Assembly (NCBI GenBank): GCA_030295235.1
Contig: AP026145.1
Coordinates: 622,501 to 686,500 of the forward strand
Source: Fistulifera solaris
Lineage: Eukaryota; Bacillariophyta; Bacillariophyceae; Naviculales; Stauroneidaceae
DNA length: 64,000 nucleotides
Reading direction: 5' to 3'
Part shown: positions 11,614 through 48,011 of the stretch, in pieces
How positions within the stretch are numbered: position 1 is the first letter of the stretch
Layout: the number at the start of each line of letters is the position of its first letter
The notes under the pieces: model-generated
What the model saw: only the letters and a program-made list of their open reading frames with translations
Databases searched by the model: none
What the model was told of the DNA's origin: nothing
Translations under genes and position numbers: made by a program

Positions 11614-13776
11614 TTATTTCTTTTTCAATGTATTATTGCGAACCCGTTCCAGTAGACCGTCCTCCGCCGTTTGATCGTTCTCGATCATTCCGGCCAGAGC
11701 CATCAAATCGTCTGCCACTTCAGAAGTGATCTTTCGCTCCTTCACTAGCAGGCGTAAAATGGGTCCTCGGAGTAAAGAGCCACTGACCACCATATTTTTA
11801 GCATGCTGATACCCCAGCATGATGGCCCAATCCAACACCAACGCCGGATCCGCTTCCGATTGGAGGCGTTGCAAAAGCAGATCGCGTCGAGCATTGAGAA
11901 ACTTCTTTTCGGTCTTCTTGTCCAAAACCTTGTATGGTAAACCAACGAGTGGTAAACAATTTTCTTGCAAGTGCTCTCGTAATGCCTCTATATCATCCAA
12001 TGGACCATGACAAAGCTCCCATAAACGAGCTACTGCCACTCCCGTGGTTCCGGGTAATATCCGACGGAATGCCACCAATGGGTCTTTCGTTTTATCGTAG
12101 GATATCGTAATGGGATCATATTGACGCAAAGCGATATCAACTGGATGAGAATAGGGGTCCGAGCGCGACTCGAAGGAAAACGATTCCTCGCTAACATTGT
12201 TTCGAAACAAGCAATACTGTGTCATGCGCCATGCCAAATCGGCACCTGGGCCTTGCAGCAATTGCTGTCGCAAAATCAATAAATCGGTATCATCCATACC
12301 GCCAGAGTCCTGTGCATATTGTAAAAAGTGTTGGGAAAGCTGAAATACATAACAAGCATACGCGAAACATTCCGTGCGTTCGAATTGCAGTGGATCGTAG
12401 TCACTGGATGTTGGTATGGTCACCCTTTGGGATCTCATGCGCTGGAGTTCGGCACGAATGGCGTTTTGACAGTCTTGGGCGTGTTCATCACTGGAAAGGA
12501 ATGCCAAGGTCGTTAGTTCTGTCAAAGTAGCGTCCTCCTCCTCAACGTCGTCACAATACTGTGCACGGATCCGTTGGACGACTCGTTCGACCGGAACAGT
12601 ACCGTACTCTAGGTTATCGATACTTGGCTTCTTTTTCGTTGACTGCTTTCGATCGAGAGAAGAATCGAGAATGGCGGACACTCCTCCCTTTGCGTCGGCC
12701 AGCTCGCGGGCTCGTTCACGGGCATATTCTTGCACCAGTAATGGCATGATGGTTGCTTGAAACGTAGCAATCATTGGTTGAGAAAAGAACCAACCACTTG
12801 GATCGTTCCACACAAAGAAACCACCTTTTGGCAGAACCTGTTGCAACAACAATCGTCCGTCTTCTACCGGAAGATTGGCGGGAATCCAAGGATGCAAGTC
12901 TAAAACATCCGCTTCTTGTAATGCTGCTTCCAAAGGATCACAGATAAGAGTCCGGTTGATGACAGCATGAGTCAATGTCAAAATCAATTCCTGATAAGGC
13001 GACAACCATTCCTTGATTTGATAGATGGAATGGAGAGTATCTGTGACGACACCTACAGTTTGAAAAAGCTCCGTCACAGCTTGTTGTTGCTGTTGTCGAT
13101 ACGCCTGGGGAATGTAGGTATCGCCTAGCAAGTTTCCGGATGTGGTTTGTCGCACGATGGGTATCACCCACGACAATTCCCATTGTTGTGCCGCACAAAT
13201 CTCGGCCAACGAAATCGGTGTCGACAAAGAATCCAGATATGTCGTTACTTGTTGTTGTAGTTCCGTCAAGTACGATTGACTAACGAGCACCGGAGCCCCA
13301 TTGTCGAGCGTCCGCAATTCGAGATCCGGGGGCACATGCGGACGAATCAATTGTAGTGTCGAATCCAAAGGCAATTGCCACATCGATTTCGCAATTTGCG
13401 TCAAAGGCAAAGGTGCTGTTCGTGCATTTTCCCACACTTGTCGTAAGGCAGCTTGTAAATATACTTTCGTCCAAAGTTGGGCCGCCGGATAATGTCCGAC
13501 GATGAACCACGGTGCATCCTCGGTCGCGAGCGGTTCCACCATCTCCCACGAAACACCCAACTTTTGCTGCACGATTGTCCACGGCAGCATGCAGCTTCCT
13601 CCTTCTTCCCGTAACACGTCGGTAATGGCCTGTTGCAGGACGTGTGGCCATATGTAATTATTGTTGCGCAATCGGAGGGGACGGTCGTCGTGAAAAGAGT
13701 TGCGTTGCAGTAACAATTCCATCAGCGCCATCGCTCCTTCTTCGGTGATGGTAATAGGCGCATTCAAGGGATCCAT
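11614..13776 (-). CDS. UFL1-like protein (E3 UFM1-protein ligase 1 homologue, tentative)
   Basis: The 720-residue protein is alpha-helical, with repeated winged-helix-like segments in the N-terminal half (WPHVLQQAITDVLREEGGSC, PISLAEICAAQQWELSWVIP, TSGNLLGDTYIPQAYRQQQ). In UFL1, the ligase that attaches UFM1 to ribosomal and ER proteins, the same order of small winged helices is followed by a long helical C-terminus and a YVP-x-Y-like motif; here YIPQAYRQ is at about residue 218. A charged linker (RKQSTKKK) lies near residue 375. No signal or membrane segment is seen. The assignment rests on overall architecture and short motifs rather than a catalytic signature, because UFL1 has none. The gene is intact and its 5' end faces the palindrome array. 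Confidence 0.5.
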   Translation of the reverse strand: MDPLNAPITITEEGAMALMELLLQRNSFHDDRPLRLRNNNYIWPHVLQQAITDVLREEGGSCMLPWTIVQQKLGVSWEMVEPLATEDAPWFIVGHYPAAQLWTKVYLQAALRQVWENARTAPLPLTQIAKSMWQLPLDSTLQLIRPHVPPDLELRTLDNGAPVLVSQSYLTELQQQVTTYLDSLSTPISLAEICAAQQWELSWVIPIVRQTTSGNLLGDTYIPQAYRQQQQQAVTELFQTVGVVTDTLHSIYQIKEWLSPYQELILTLTHAVINRTLICDPLEAALQEADVLDLHPWIPANLPVEDGRLLLQQVLPKGGFFVWNDPSGWFFSQPMIATFQATIMPLLVQEYARERARELADAKGGVSAILDSSLDRKQSTKKKPSIDNLEYGTVPVERVVQRIRAQYCDDVEEEDATLTELTTLAFLSSDEHAQDCQNAIRAELQRMRSQRVTIPTSSDYDPLQFERTECFAYACYVFQLSQHFLQYAQDSGGMDDTDLLILRQQLLQGPGADLAWRMTQYCLFRNNVSEESFSFESRSDPYSHPVDIALRQYDPITISYDKTKDPLVAFRRILPGTTGVAVARLWELCHGPLDDIEALREHLQENCLPLVGLPYKVLDKKTEKKFLNARRDLLLQRLQSEADPALVLDWAIMLGYQHAKNMVVSGSLLRGPILRLLVKERKITSEVADDLMALAGMIENDQTAEDGLLERVRNNTLKKK

Positions 13777-13879
13777 GTTGCAGCATTAAAAAGTAATAAA
13801 TTTGTAGAGTAAAAAGAAAGATATTGAAACTCCTTCACATAATAAACATACTGTTCGTTGCGATGATTGTGAGGTTTTT

Positions 13880-15275
13880 GCTATTAACCACCGTTTCCAG
13901 AGTTTCTGGAACTTGCACACCTTGGTGCACAGCAGCGCATTTTGGGAGGATCGAAAAAACTGGTCCAGAATTTCTGGACCAATACAGAATTTCTGTATGA
14001 TCAGACACAAGACACAACTCTTCCAGAATTTCTGGAACGTGCAATTTCTATCGTTATGATCAAAACGCGCAGTTTCTTTCGTGATGATCCATAAGACCCG
14101 TGCTCAGGATTTCTGGAACGTGCAAAGCATTTTTTAAGAGGATCGGAAAAACTGGTCCAAAATTTCTGGACCAATACAATAAAATAAAAATTTTAGAATT
14201 TCTGTATGATCAGACACAACACACAACTCTTCCAGAATTTCTGGAATTGGCACGTTCTTTCGTTATCATTCAAAAATGGTTTCCAGGATTTCTGAAAGGC
14301 GCACTGTTTTTCGTTACGATTCGAAATTCCATACCCAGAAGTTCCGGAGCGTGAACCGCATTTTGCTGGACAGAATTTCTGTATGATTTGACTTAACATT
14401 TCCAGAATTTCTGGAATTGGCACGTTCTTTCGTTATCATTCAAAACATGGTTTCCAGGATATCTGGAAGGCGCACTGTTTTTCGTTACGATTCGAAACAC
14501 AATGCCAAGAAGTTCTGGAGCGTGAACAGCATTTGGGTGGGATCGAAAAAACTGGTCCGGAAATTCTGGACCACGACAGAATTTCTGTATGATCAGAAAT
14601 AACATTTCCAGAATTTCTGGAATTGGCACGTTCCTTCGTTATCATTCAAAACATGGTTTCCAGGATTTCTGGAAGGCGCACTGTTTTTCGTTACGATTCG
14701 AAACATCATGCCCAGAAGTTCTGGATCGTGAACAGCTTTTGGGTGGGATCGAAAACTGTTCCAGAATTTCTGGATCAAGACAGAATTTCTGTATGATTCC
14801 AGATTTTCTGGAATCGGCACGTTCCTTCGTTATCATTCAAAACATGGTTTCCAGGATTTCTGGAAGGCGCACTGTTTTTCGTTACGATTCGAAACATCAT
14901 GCCCAGAAGTTCTGGATCGTGAACAGCATTTTGGTGGGATCGAAAAAACTGGTCCAGAATTTCTGGACCACGACAGAATTTCTGTTTAATCAGAAACAAC
15001 TTGTCAAGATTTTCTGGAATCGGCACTTTCTTTCGTTATAAGTAAAAGACGGTCCTCTGAATTTTTGGACCGCATACTTTCGTTCGTTATGATTCAAAAC
15101 ACATTGTCCAGAAGTTCTGGAGCGTGAACAGCATTTTGGTGAGATCGAAAAACTGGTCCAGAATTTCTGGACCACGACAGAATTTCTGTTTGATCAGAAA
15201 TAACATCTCAAGATTTTCTGGAACGGGCACTTTCTTTCGTTACGATCAAAAGACTTTTAGAGTTTTTAGAACGCG
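13880..15275. repeat. Palindrome array (CCAGAA-N-TTCTGG units)
   Basis: About 30 copies of a short odd-length palindrome centred on AGAA-N-TTCT lie in ~1.4 kb, one every ~50 bp. Variants include TCCAGAATTTCTGGA, ACAGAATTTCTGT, CCAGAAGTTCTGG and CCAGGATTTCTGG. The flanks change but often stay complementary: GGTCC pairs with GGACC, TAC with GTA, TTCC with GGAA. Spacers also repeat (TTTCGTTATCATTCAAAA and TTTCGTTACGATTCGAAA). Four ~50-bp units form a ~206-bp higher-order unit, clearest from 14400 to 15200. The array lies between the 5' end of the UFL1-like gene and the 3' end of the SDR gene. No flanking transposase or duplication was seen. Function is unknown. Confidence 0.85.
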
Positions 15276-15662
15276 GGTTTTCATGATGATCAATGATCCA
15301 AAGATCGGTAGTTGCAACAAAAGGCTTCCAGAACAAAAATTCGCTGACTTATGTGTAAAAGCGGCTATGGTGACGACTCGACGACTCGACGTCTTCTCAA
15401 CTCAACTGAACTAATTTGTTAGCTATTATTATCTCCAAGCTGAAATTATTTGCCCTTTCACTATCTTCAATTATTGAAAGGAGGATGATACAACGCCCTT
15501 GTTCGTTTACCGTAGCAGGAGTGCTGCTGGTGGTGCTTTTCACTCAAACGTAAAATGTTTTACAGTGTCCAAGACAAGTTCGAGGTCAATCGGAAGTACA
15601 AAAGATTGCATAGACTCGAGTTTCGTAGACCAACGAAAGTAGCACAGCAAGTAGTAGAGGGT
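15276..15662. other. Intergenic region
   Basis: Decayed edge of the palindrome array followed by unique sequence with a short GACGACTC direct repeat (15371-15390). No gene is seen; it should contain the 3' UTR of the SDR gene. Confidence 0.3.
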
Positions 15663-16529
15663 TTATTCGTTTCGTCGCATGGGATCGTTCATCGGATTCG
15701 CGTACTGCCGTATGCCATGTCCTCCATCCACATCCAACACGACTCCGGTACAAAATGGCGCCGTCAAAAGATAATAAATTGCTTCGCCCATATCACTCGG
15801 CTGTCCCACTTTTTGAAGTGGCAAGGATGAAGCCGTATGTTCCAACATGGCGTGTTTTCGTGAAGGATCCATATGATCGAATCGTTCGGTATCACAAAAT
15901 CCCGGACTCAAACAATTGACGCGCAATCGGGGAGCCCATTCCAACGCCAATGTCCGGGTCAAGCCCTCCAAGGCCCCATTCGCCATGGCGAGTGGCGCAC
16001 AATTCACTCCGGGACGTCGATTCAAAATACCCGCACACAAGACGACGGCGCCGTCGTCGCACAAGTGTGGACTCCAATGTTTGGCACAATGATACGCGCC
16101 CCATAATTTACTATCCAGCAACGTCCGGGCGTGGTTGGTTTCGAGTGTCAACACGGGTTCGTGGGGAGCCCTACCGGCGGCGGTAATGACCAGTCCGTCC
16201 CAATCCAGCGGCGGCAAAGTGAACGCTTGGACTTGGGATTCGTCGGTAATATCCATGGCGGCAATCGACGTTCGTTCCGGACACGCTAGTTGGTCGCGGG
16301 CTCGTTCTAATTTGCTGACGGAACGACTGACCAAGAGGACGTGACCGCCGTGCTGTAAGACTTGCCGGGCGGCCGCCAAGCCCATGCCGGAGGAGCCACC
16401 GACGATTATGACATTTTTGGGGCGTTCCTGAGCGTGAGCTATTGCGAATAAAGCAATAGAAGTGACTAACAAGAGTGTGACTTTTATGAAGCGAAAGGAA
16501 GATAACATTGCTGGTGTAAGAACTGTCAT
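15663..16529 (-). CDS. Atypical short-chain dehydrogenase/reductase
   Basis: The ATG at 16529 gives a 288-residue protein with an N-terminal hydrophobic segment (FIKVTLLLVTSIALFAIAHA) consistent with a signal peptide or anchor. The nucleotide-binding motif VGGSSGMGLAAA (T/G-G-x3-G-x-G) and SRSVSKLERARDQL fit the classical SDR Rossmann fold. The late motif RVNCLSPGFCDT is typical too. The catalytic Ser-Tyr-x3-Lys region is altered: after LCAGILNRRPGVNCAPLAMANGALEGLTRTL there is no Tyr-x3-Lys pair. Some bacterial SDRs with a similar APxxxAxNGALE segment also lack it. The protein may bind NAD(P) and have a different chemistry or none. The frame is open for 14 codons upstream but without an ATG. 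Confidence 0.8.
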   Translation of the reverse strand: MTVLTPAMLSSFRFIKVTLLLVTSIALFAIAHAQERPKNVIIVGGSSGMGLAAARQVLQHGGHVLLVSRSVSKLERARDQLACPERTSIAAMDITDESQVQAFTLPPLDWDGLVITAAGRAPHEPVLTLETNHARTLLDSKLWGAYHCAKHWSPHLCDDGAVVLCAGILNRRPGVNCAPLAMANGALEGLTRTLALEWAPRLRVNCLSPGFCDTERFDHMDPSRKHAMLEHTASSLPLQKVGQPSDMGEAIYYLLTAPFCTGVVLDVDGGHGIRQYANPMNDPMRRNE

Positions 16530-17089
16530 GATGGAAATAGATGCCGATGAATGAAGAAAAATGAATGGCAAAAATAGTGAGGTGCACTTGATTTATCCAT
16601 TGGTTCACGAGAGAATTTCAGTCATGAGCTGAACTATTGCGTAAAATGTAGTTGAATTTTTTTGCCCCGAGAAAGGATTCCGGATTCCGTTCAGTCCTGT
16701 GGAGGACGATGAAGATTAATTTTTATTTCGTCCATCTGGGATTTTTGGGCGAACCTGCCATGATGAGAATCGAGCAATAATGCTATCAAATCAATCATGA
16801 CGATGTTTATCGATGTTATTACATCAGTTTAAGGAAAAGAAAAGTTGAATGACAATGAAGAGGATCTGGGGTCGCAAAATTGGGTTCTTGGATCTCATTC
16901 CTCGTCGCGTCGTTTTCTTCAAGCGCCAAATTGTGAGACATCGCCAAAATTGGGTCTCAACGATGACCAACCGACGACAAATTGTTTTTCTCGAACAAGA
17001 GTCAAGCTCGAAAGTCATTCTTTCTTTTGTCACAAATTCTATTGGGGCGATTGTTGGTAGTCTGCTTTTTTGACTTGTTGCTTTGGAAA
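16530..17089. other. Intergenic region
   Basis: This divergent spacer should hold promoters for the SDR and the secreted-protein gene. Half of a GACTG/CAGTC hairpin (TTTCAGTCATGAG) is at 16616-16628. Nothing else was recognised. Confidence 0.3.
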
Positions 17090-46280: not shown

Positions 46281-48011
46281 ATGGCATCGCGATTGGCTGT
46301 CATGACCCGACGCGTCTTGACGACAGCGCGTTCGCCGGTCGCACAGGGGTTCCTCTCCATAGCTCCCCGGTCACTCGTCGTCCAATCTCCCACATGCTTC
46401 GTGCGCTCCCTCTCGACCACTATGAAACCACCCAAACACGCCATGCTTTCGACGGACAAGAAAGTGAAAGCTCCACCCATGGTATACATTGCCGGAGAAG
46501 AAATGACACGATACGCGTGTGATCTCATGGTGCAAAAATGGTTTCAACCGTACTTTGATACGACGTCGTGGCACTATTTTGATTTATCGTGTGCCTCCCG
46601 CGATGCGACCAACGATCAAGTTTTGAAAGATGCCGTACAAGCTGGCAAAGACATTGGCGCCATTTTCAAGGAACCGACCATTACGCCATCGGCTCTTCAA
46701 GTCAAACAAATGGGGTTGAAGAAAGCGTGGGGGTCCCCCAATGGAGCCATGCGGCGGGGATGGAATGGCATTACCATTAGTCGCGATACGATTCATATTG
46801 ATGGCATTGAATTGGGGTACAAGAATCCGGTGTTCTTTGAACGACATGCGGTCGGGGGCGAATACGGTGCGGGTTGGAATCAAGTCGGTAAAGGAACCTT
46901 GTTGACGACCTACTTGCCCAAAGAAGAAGGATCTCCACCCTTTGTCGTAGATAAACGCGATTTGACCGATGATCACAATGTCGTGGTAGTATATCACAAT
47001 CCCTACGACAATGTCACCAGTTTGGCTCATTTGTTCTTCGGTCGGTGCTTGGAAGCCGGTATTACGCCGTATATTGTCACCAAAAAGACGGTGTTCAAAT
47101 GGCAAGAGGGATTCTGGGCCACCATGAAAGAAGTTTTTGATAAAGACTACAAGGAAAAGTTTCTCAAAAGGGTTTGCTGGACAAGTGCGGCGGAGATTTG
47201 CAGCACTTGATTTCGGACGCGGCGACGATGCAATTGATTCGCTGGACCGATGGAGGATTCGGCATGGCGGCTCACAACTACGATGGTGATATGTGTAAGT
47301 GTCATGAAACGCGAGATAAAGATTGTGATCCTACTGTTTTCATTTATTCACGTGCTACATTTTCCCCGGAATTCTACAGTGACGGATCAGATTGCCCAAG
47401 TCCATCGCTCTCCCGGTTTCATCACCAGTAACTTGGTCGGAAAGAATGACGACGGTAGTCTCATTAAAGAATTTGAAGCATCCCACGGAACGGTCACAGA
47501 CTTGTGGAATGATCACTTGGCTGGACGTGACACCAGTTTGAACCCGCTTGGTTTGGTGGAGGCAATGATTGGAGCCATGGAGCATGCGGCGACTTTGGAT
47601 GCCGAACGACACAGCGGAGATGAAAGCAAGCTGCAGACGAAAGACCAAGTATTCAACTTTACGACAACCTTGCGAACGGCACTGCACAATACATTCCGAT
47701 ACGGACAGGGTACTCGCGATATGAGTGGACCTTCAGGATTCACAACCGAAGATTTCATTGACAAGGTCGCGTGGCGTTTGGGGCGTTACCTTTCCATGCA
47801 ATACGATGAATCTCCTCCTCCAACATTGAAAGAGCCGGATCGCAAATATCGTCGCAACTACGACATTGACGAAGAGGCAGTGAGTGCGATGTTTGCCAAG
47901 TACGATAAGAACGGCGATGGATTTATCGATTTCGAAGAATTCACAAGGATGCTGGTCAAGATGAACCTCGCTCCCGCCAAAGCCAAGCCTACCAAGACAC
48001 CGGACGTATAG
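46281..48011 (+). CDS. Isocitrate dehydrogenase with C-terminal EF-hand
   Basis: Exons 46281-47294 and 47380-48011 flank an 85-nt intron. The start at 46281 gives an Arg/Ser-rich mitochondrial transit peptide (MASRLAVMTRRVLTTARSPV). The catalytic body carries family motifs PMVYIAGEEMTRY, TITPSALQVKQMGLKKAWGSPNGAMRR, GWNGITISRD, the Asp-bearing AAHNYDGDM segment and FEASHGTVTDL. The C-terminal ~40 residues contain an EF-hand loop, DKNGDGFIDFEEF, with ligands D-N-D-F-D-E, so calcium may tune the enzyme. EF-hand IDHs are known from algae. Cofactor choice (NAD or NADP) was not resolved here. One frame change lies at the A-run 47166-47169 (FLK then GLLDKCGGD); one missing A joins the parts. Confidence 0.88.

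Follow-up and report, generated by a model that had tools for sequence, protein, structure and literature searches.

A tandem array of near-palindromic sites upstream of a UFL1-like gene in a diatom: a possible cluster of protein-binding sites

The locus and its array

The window analysed here is a stretch of 64,000 nucleotides from Fistulifera solaris, taken as nuclear eukaryotic DNA. Between two of its genes lies a 1.4-kb stretch which is a genuine tandem array of about 33 near-palindromic sites with one core kept (Table 1). The array starts about 100-120 bp upstream of the ATG of an ORF resembling the E3 UFM1-protein ligase UFL1, and it occupies 0.74 of the gap between this ORF and that of a short-chain dehydrogenase, being upstream of the former and downstream of the latter. 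Just beyond both ends, decayed spacer-like sequence seems to continue. A coding array was considered and rejected: there are ORFs of 83-150 aa inside it, yet the differences in block length are not divisible by three. Elsewhere in the window, Pfam was run on 24 of the 31 ORFs of at least 220 aa, and 20 of the 24 had some match; besides the two ORFs flanking the array, the matched families include a cullin, PPR proteins, mTERF and XRN. The ORF at 47250-48011 has EF-hand matches, along with a similarity to isocitrate dehydrogenase that is below Pfam's cut-off.

Table 1. Coordinates of the array, its blocks and the flanking ORFs within the window (numbers in brackets are palindrome centres).
Feature	Position	Strand	Content
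UFL1-like (E3 UFM1-protein ligase) ORF	11614..13776	-	PF09743, E 1.4e-09, residues 40-250 of 720
Whole tandem array	13880..15275	+	Recognisable monomers 13895-15255
Block 1	13895..14101	+	C(13903) D(13971) D'(13990) A(14029), followed by a B-like spacer lacking the palindrome (about 14067-14098)
Block 2	14102..14332	+	C(14110) D(14163) D'(14199, 36 bp past D) A(14238) B(14289)
Block 3	14333..14503	+	C(14341), D palindrome absent, D'(14376) A(14408) B(14460)
Block 4	14504..14709	+	C(14512) D(14563) D'(14582) A(14614) B(14666)
Block 5	14710..14900	+	C(14718) D(14767) D'(14786) A(14805) B(14857); shortened after D'
Block 6	14901..15105	+	C(14909) D(14960) D'(14979) A(15011) B(15062, aberrant)
Block 7, incomplete	15106..15255	+	C(15114) D(15164) D'(15183) A(15215), then decayed unit at 15263
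Short-chain dehydrogenase ORF	15663..16571	-	PF13561, E 7.3e-33; 3' end towards array

When up to two mismatches are allowed, CCAGAANTTCTGG matches the window 31 times, and 30 of these matches are inside the array at 13897-15221. Shuffles of the window give an expectation of 2.87 window-wide, and 31 was reached in none of 100 shuffles. Odd palindromes in which 7 or 8 of the 8 arm pairs match are found at 17 of 1396 centres inside 13880-15275, and at 37 of 62564 outside. A loose cut (8 of 13 core letters) over about 13700-15450 gives 37 places, 30 of them with at least 11 letters. The four weakest (14149, 14532, 14929, and 15134) are spacer matches and were excluded, leaving 33 sites made up of 26 primary sites and 7 of a further kind called D'. 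The original prediction had counted about 30 palindromes at a spacing of some 50 bp, and this agrees well with the 33 sites and with a spacing of 51 or 52 bp in 15 of the 25 intervals between primary neighbours. The flank examples it gave (GGTCC with GGACC, TAC with GTA, TTCC with GGAA) are likewise present, the second of them as ATAC with GTAT. The helical phase of neighbour spacings is moderately concentrated (0.51-0.58), which is not taken as evidence of phasing.

Four monomer types in a fixed order

After the array was cut at its primary palindromes, 26 monomers could be aligned. Their spacers are homologous, with common boxes around TTTCGTTA and GAT(C/T)-AAA. The monomers, of about 52 bp, fall into four types (here named A to D) which follow each other in the fixed order C-D-A-B, forming about seven units of some 206 bp from about 13895 to about 15255. 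The alignment thus confirms both the homologous spacers and the four-monomer period that had been claimed. The 206-bp period is itself real, since TRF recovers it at 14369-15242 (4.3 copies, score 1203), but the range first given for it, 14400-15200, is too short: the seven blocks start at 13895, and there are more indels than had been described. Block lengths from that point are 207, 231, 171, 206, 191, and 205 bp, the last and incomplete block having 150. Pairwise identity between blocks is 0.78-0.95 when gaps are not counted. Spacers are 0.833 identical within types versus 0.553 between types. Monomers thus resemble each other most when they hold corresponding places in successive blocks, and less when their places differ, as in a head-to-tail tandem repeat with higher-order structure.

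The extra palindrome D' is present in all seven blocks, and its sequence is ACAGAATTTCTGT in six of them. It is centred 19 bp past the D centre in five of the six blocks having D, and 36 bp past it in the other. Its sequence again comes close to the core, at a position where types A, B, and C show diverged spacer. D' could be a site gained recently, but it may equally be what is left of a second palindrome that the monomer once had. At 14540-14611, D and D' can pair with each other, CTGGTC... against ...GATCAG, to give a single extended hairpin (+ strand, z -4.29). By our reading, the palindrome has been lost at two monomer places: the B-like spacer of block 1 (about 14067-14098) has none, and in block 3 the D site expected ahead of 14376 is missing. 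In the B monomer at 15062 (15050-15074), clustered changes yield GGTCC and GGACC in a shifted register. This monomer resembles a D palindrome plus two bases, possibly as a result of conversion from D or of a template switch.

Conservation of the core between types

In the consensuses of the four types, 11 of 12 core columns are identical, compared to 11 of 29 in the spacer and 1 of 10 in the flanks (Fisher p 0.002 for core against spacer). Mean identity between types, over 233 pairs, is 0.864 for the core, 0.553 for the spacer, and 0.383 for the flanks. Parsimony changes per column are also fewer in the core than in the spacer on two trees (1.5 vs 2.2, p 0.037; 1.3 vs 2.3, p 0.007). All of these values are to be read with a bias in favour of core conservation, as the monomers were recognised partly by their own core. 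Within types, departures amount to 18 of 300 in the core and 64 of 691 in the spacer (p 0.10). The core is thus only mildly less variable there, so constraint after amplification is not demonstrated. Taken together, the comparisons between types support the view that one core sequence has probably been under constraint.

The two halves of the core do not behave alike. On the spacer tree, 4 changes fall in the 6 columns of the right half, TTCTGG, versus 14 in the left half (p 0.009), and on the whole-monomer tree the figures are 4 and 12 (p 0.009). This test was unplanned, and when distinct departures are counted instead, there are 9 on the left and 4 on the right (binomial p 0.27). The kept element may be directional rather than a strict palindrome.

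Pairing of the palindrome arms

The 33 sites (29 of them distinct) were aligned without gaps for covariation. Over 8 arm pairs, none of 500 column shuffles reaches the observed covariation score of 0.262 (shuffles give 0.148), and the share of paired cells is 86.2% versus 78.8%; over 12 pairs, the score is 0.240 versus 0.151 (again 0 of 500), but column shuffles ignore kinship and the array copies are close kin. Counts of pairs and pair types are less sensitive to kinship than the raw score. In the 8-pair set, 4 pairs changed on both sides versus 2.5 in shuffles (34 of 500 as high), and there were 12 further pair types versus 11.3 (215 of 500). When the partner is slid by one base, the two-sided cells are equal, 17 and 17.

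Pair changes were then mapped for 25 typed monomers on a tree made from spacer columns only. The unit at 15263 was left out of tree and type counts, and D' sites out of tree counts. On this tree there is no double change at arm positions 1-8. At positions 1-6, about 7 changes lead to G-T, about 10 break a pair, and about 1 restores one, so that about 17 changes leave a Watson-Crick pair by altering a single arm. At positions 7-8 about 6 changes break pairs and about 6 restore them, while the mean number of double changes at position 10 is 0.6. The excluded unit 15263 does carry a two-sided change in the 33-site alignment (C-G to T-A at position 5), and D' sites have A-T at position 6 where the others mostly have C-G. 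With the five type consensuses as units, 13 of 25 pairs match at positions 6-10, where permutations average 9.8 and 9 of 120 do as well. The corresponding figures are 11 of 30 versus 8.2 at positions 7-12 (13 of 120), and 8 of 20 versus 6.4 at positions 7-10 (30 of 120). If only the four primary types are used, the observed matching is equalled by 4 of 24 permutations at positions 7-10, and by 2 of 24 at positions 7-12.

The excess of independent two-sided changes by which a covarying hairpin is recognised was not found in these counts. A slight tendency of the arms to match remains, but their covariation, as originally predicted, is not established: permutations of the types are beaten only weakly, and two-sided changes number none against about 17 single-arm changes at positions 1-6. 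Pairing had also been said to be retained through compensatory change, a claim that these changes, with about one restoration among them, do not support. There is thus little support for selection acting on folding itself. That the sites are still palindromic is mainly due to the retention of a single core sequence. As for the proposal that the array is more than a plain satellite, the conservation of the core between types speaks for extra constraint, while the compensatory pairing on which the proposal relied is not upheld.

Relation to heat-shock elements

The core had been likened to the heat-shock element (HSE), defined here as at least three contiguous inverted nGAAn units with 2-base gaps. 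GAAnTTC occurs 22 times in the array and TTCnnGAA 16 times, whereas GAAnnTTC and three-unit elements are both absent, and it is therefore not a heat-shock element by the usual definition. Some outside support for the link nevertheless comes from another stramenopile. The heat-shock factors (HSFs) of P. infestans are described as binding ungapped GAATTC, one-base-gapped TTCNGAA, and two-base-gapped TTCTAGAA (PMC11267843). In P. tricornutum, HSFs make up 67 of 196 transcription factors (PMC4827209). Given this binding and these numbers, an HSF site with a single base between GAA and TTC is plausible. The Hsf1 motifs of Candida albicans are treated in a further paper (PMC4894976).

Similar sequences elsewhere

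Prokaryote genomes were scanned for two cores with 33-45 bases between them, which gave two loci, L001 and L002. In L002, from a Clostridia bin (locus range 1340-2130), at least 8 of the 10 letters of CCAG...TTCTGG are present at 22 places from 1350 to 2125, spaced by 28-31 bp in 18 of the 21 intervals. This run adjoins three TTATCCACA sequences, which we take to be DnaA boxes. A second run of CCAGNNNTTCTGG sites, L006 (1035-1495), is found on a different contig of the same genome. In these two bacterial runs the sites are about 29-30 bp apart and the spacers look mutually unlike; in contrast to the array of the window, they do not look like plain tandem copies. The paired pattern of L002 is absent from 60 relatives, and its likeness to the array, as well as that of L006, is taken as convergence. 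The single core pairs of L001 and L003 are taken as chance because these loci show no further sites; L004 and L005 were rejected, being spacer-pattern matches only, with no core in either. Of three scans of viral contigs, one gave no match. The array is not named in the open-licence papers searched, and the occurrences of four core strings in five papers were judged, from titles and the openings of abstracts, to be unrelated to it.

A possible cluster of binding sites

From what can be read in the DNA itself, that is the array, the order of its monomers, the conservation of the core between types, and the position of the whole, we tentatively favour the view that the sites form a homotypic cluster, recognised by a DNA-binding protein with sequence specificity. 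A single monomer of 52 bp, consisting of a near-palindrome and a spacer, would have diverged into four types, which were presumably amplified as a block of about 206 bp by unequal exchange. A putative protein would read CCAGAA-N-TTCTGG, perhaps most strictly in its right half TTCTGGA, and having so many sites would increase its occupancy locally, around the promoter of the UFL1-like gene, the putative target. Such a protein would presumably be oligomeric, the first candidate being an HSF of the expanded diatom family. What argues for a binding-site cluster is that the core was kept while spacer and flanks diverged between types, that it has fewer parsimony changes per column than the spacer, that D' nearly matches the core where other types have diverged spacer, and that the array is next to the UFL1-like ATG. 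The abundance of HSFs in P. tricornutum and the gap tolerance of those of P. infestans point the same way (PMC4827209; PMC11267843). The two monomer places without a palindrome weaken this reading, as do the small advantage of the core within types, the recognition of monomers partly by that core, and the alternative origin of D' as a remnant, and the larger number of changes in the left arm (14 vs 4) fits a symmetric dimer poorly.

The main competitor is a neutral minisatellite, nearly as likely as the binding-site cluster. A monomer that was palindromic by chance would have been duplicated, and unequal crossing over would have produced the higher-order repeat with nothing bound to it. The indels that make the block lengths differ, the loss of the palindrome at two places, a core that varies within types at close to the spacer level, and the lack of any two-sided change at positions 1-6 in 25 monomers all fit such a repeat. 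A core far better kept between types than either spacer or flanks is not, on the other hand, what homologous monomers would be expected to show if they had diverged neutrally. Mutation rather than selection could also maintain palindromes, if a template switch within a quasi-palindrome rewrites one arm to match its partner; this process is described as a source of compensatory changes for which selection is not needed (PMC8794818). The 10-bp arms of type D and the shifted GGTCC and GGACC of the unit at 15062 would suit it. Yet template switching predicts that the arms change jointly, and none of the changes placed at positions 1-6 is two-sided; it would moreover preserve palindromy and not a single fixed core. 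With no two-sided changes to explain at the inner arm positions in the 25 monomers, it is hardly needed, and we consider it very unlikely as the main cause.

Two further readings seem slighter still. The array could be transcribed into hairpins, as a structured or small RNA, and one D-D' segment does fold better than its shuffles (z -4.29 on the + strand, -2.46 on the - strand). Folding well is however general to palindromes, the only other segment folded, taken from around an A site, does not stand out (z -1.91 and -1.62), and the changes at positions 1-6 include no two-sided ones. In Rfam, nothing between 13000 and 16000 attains the gathering score in a search up to E 1, the sole match being to a miRNA family at 21.6 bits versus a cut-off of 90. 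This hairpin RNA reading is thus weakly supported, and we give it little credence. No more credible is an iteron-like array serving replication, recombination or transposase binding. It could account for near-palindromes recurring at about 52 and 19/32 bp, and the look-alike in the bacterial bin does adjoin TTATCCACA sequences. But that look-alike has its own spacing of 28-31 bp and a paired match in none of 60 relatives. The best 25 of 28 inverted-repeat pairs at 13600-15650 are all inside the array, 24 coming from palindromes and 1 from spacers, with none joining the outer flanks as terminal inverted repeats would; no transposase was matched by Pfam among the 24 window ORFs scanned.

Within the binding-site cluster, a more specific and rather improbable version is that a diatom HSF, or another oligomeric factor, reads the one-base-gapped CCAGAA-N-TTCTGG. 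The array would then be a stress switch of about 33 sites for UFMylation, in which the 51-52-bp spacing, about five helical turns, would aid cooperative loading. If the cores are bound, the array offers a convenient way into two questions: which sequences the very large HSF family of diatoms recognises, and how tandem duplication builds a control region. If they are not, it is a clean case of raw covariation counts misleading in an array of kin copies.

Comparison with known systems

Like homotypic clusters of transcription-factor sites, the array has numerous copies of one motif upstream of an ORF. Here, however, tandem duplication multiplied the copies together with their spacers, and copy number alone is therefore no evidence of selection. 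HSE clusters share with the array its construction from GAA and TTC units, including the TTCnnGAA arrangement, but a single base separates GAA from TTC at the centre of the array's sites, where an HSE has two, and the outer TTC/GAA is not kept in the C, D, and D' consensuses. The two CCAGNNNTTCTGG arrays of the Clostridia bin are also runs of many such sites, some core variants even being identical; they differ in being bacterial, in the 28-31-bp spacing of L002, and in spacers that look unlike each other. With minisatellite or satellite arrays that have higher-order repeats, an alpha-satellite-like organisation, our array has in common diverged monomers in a fixed order, amplified as a block. 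Unlike these, it is short (1.4 kb) and intergenic, and its core is better kept between types than the rest.
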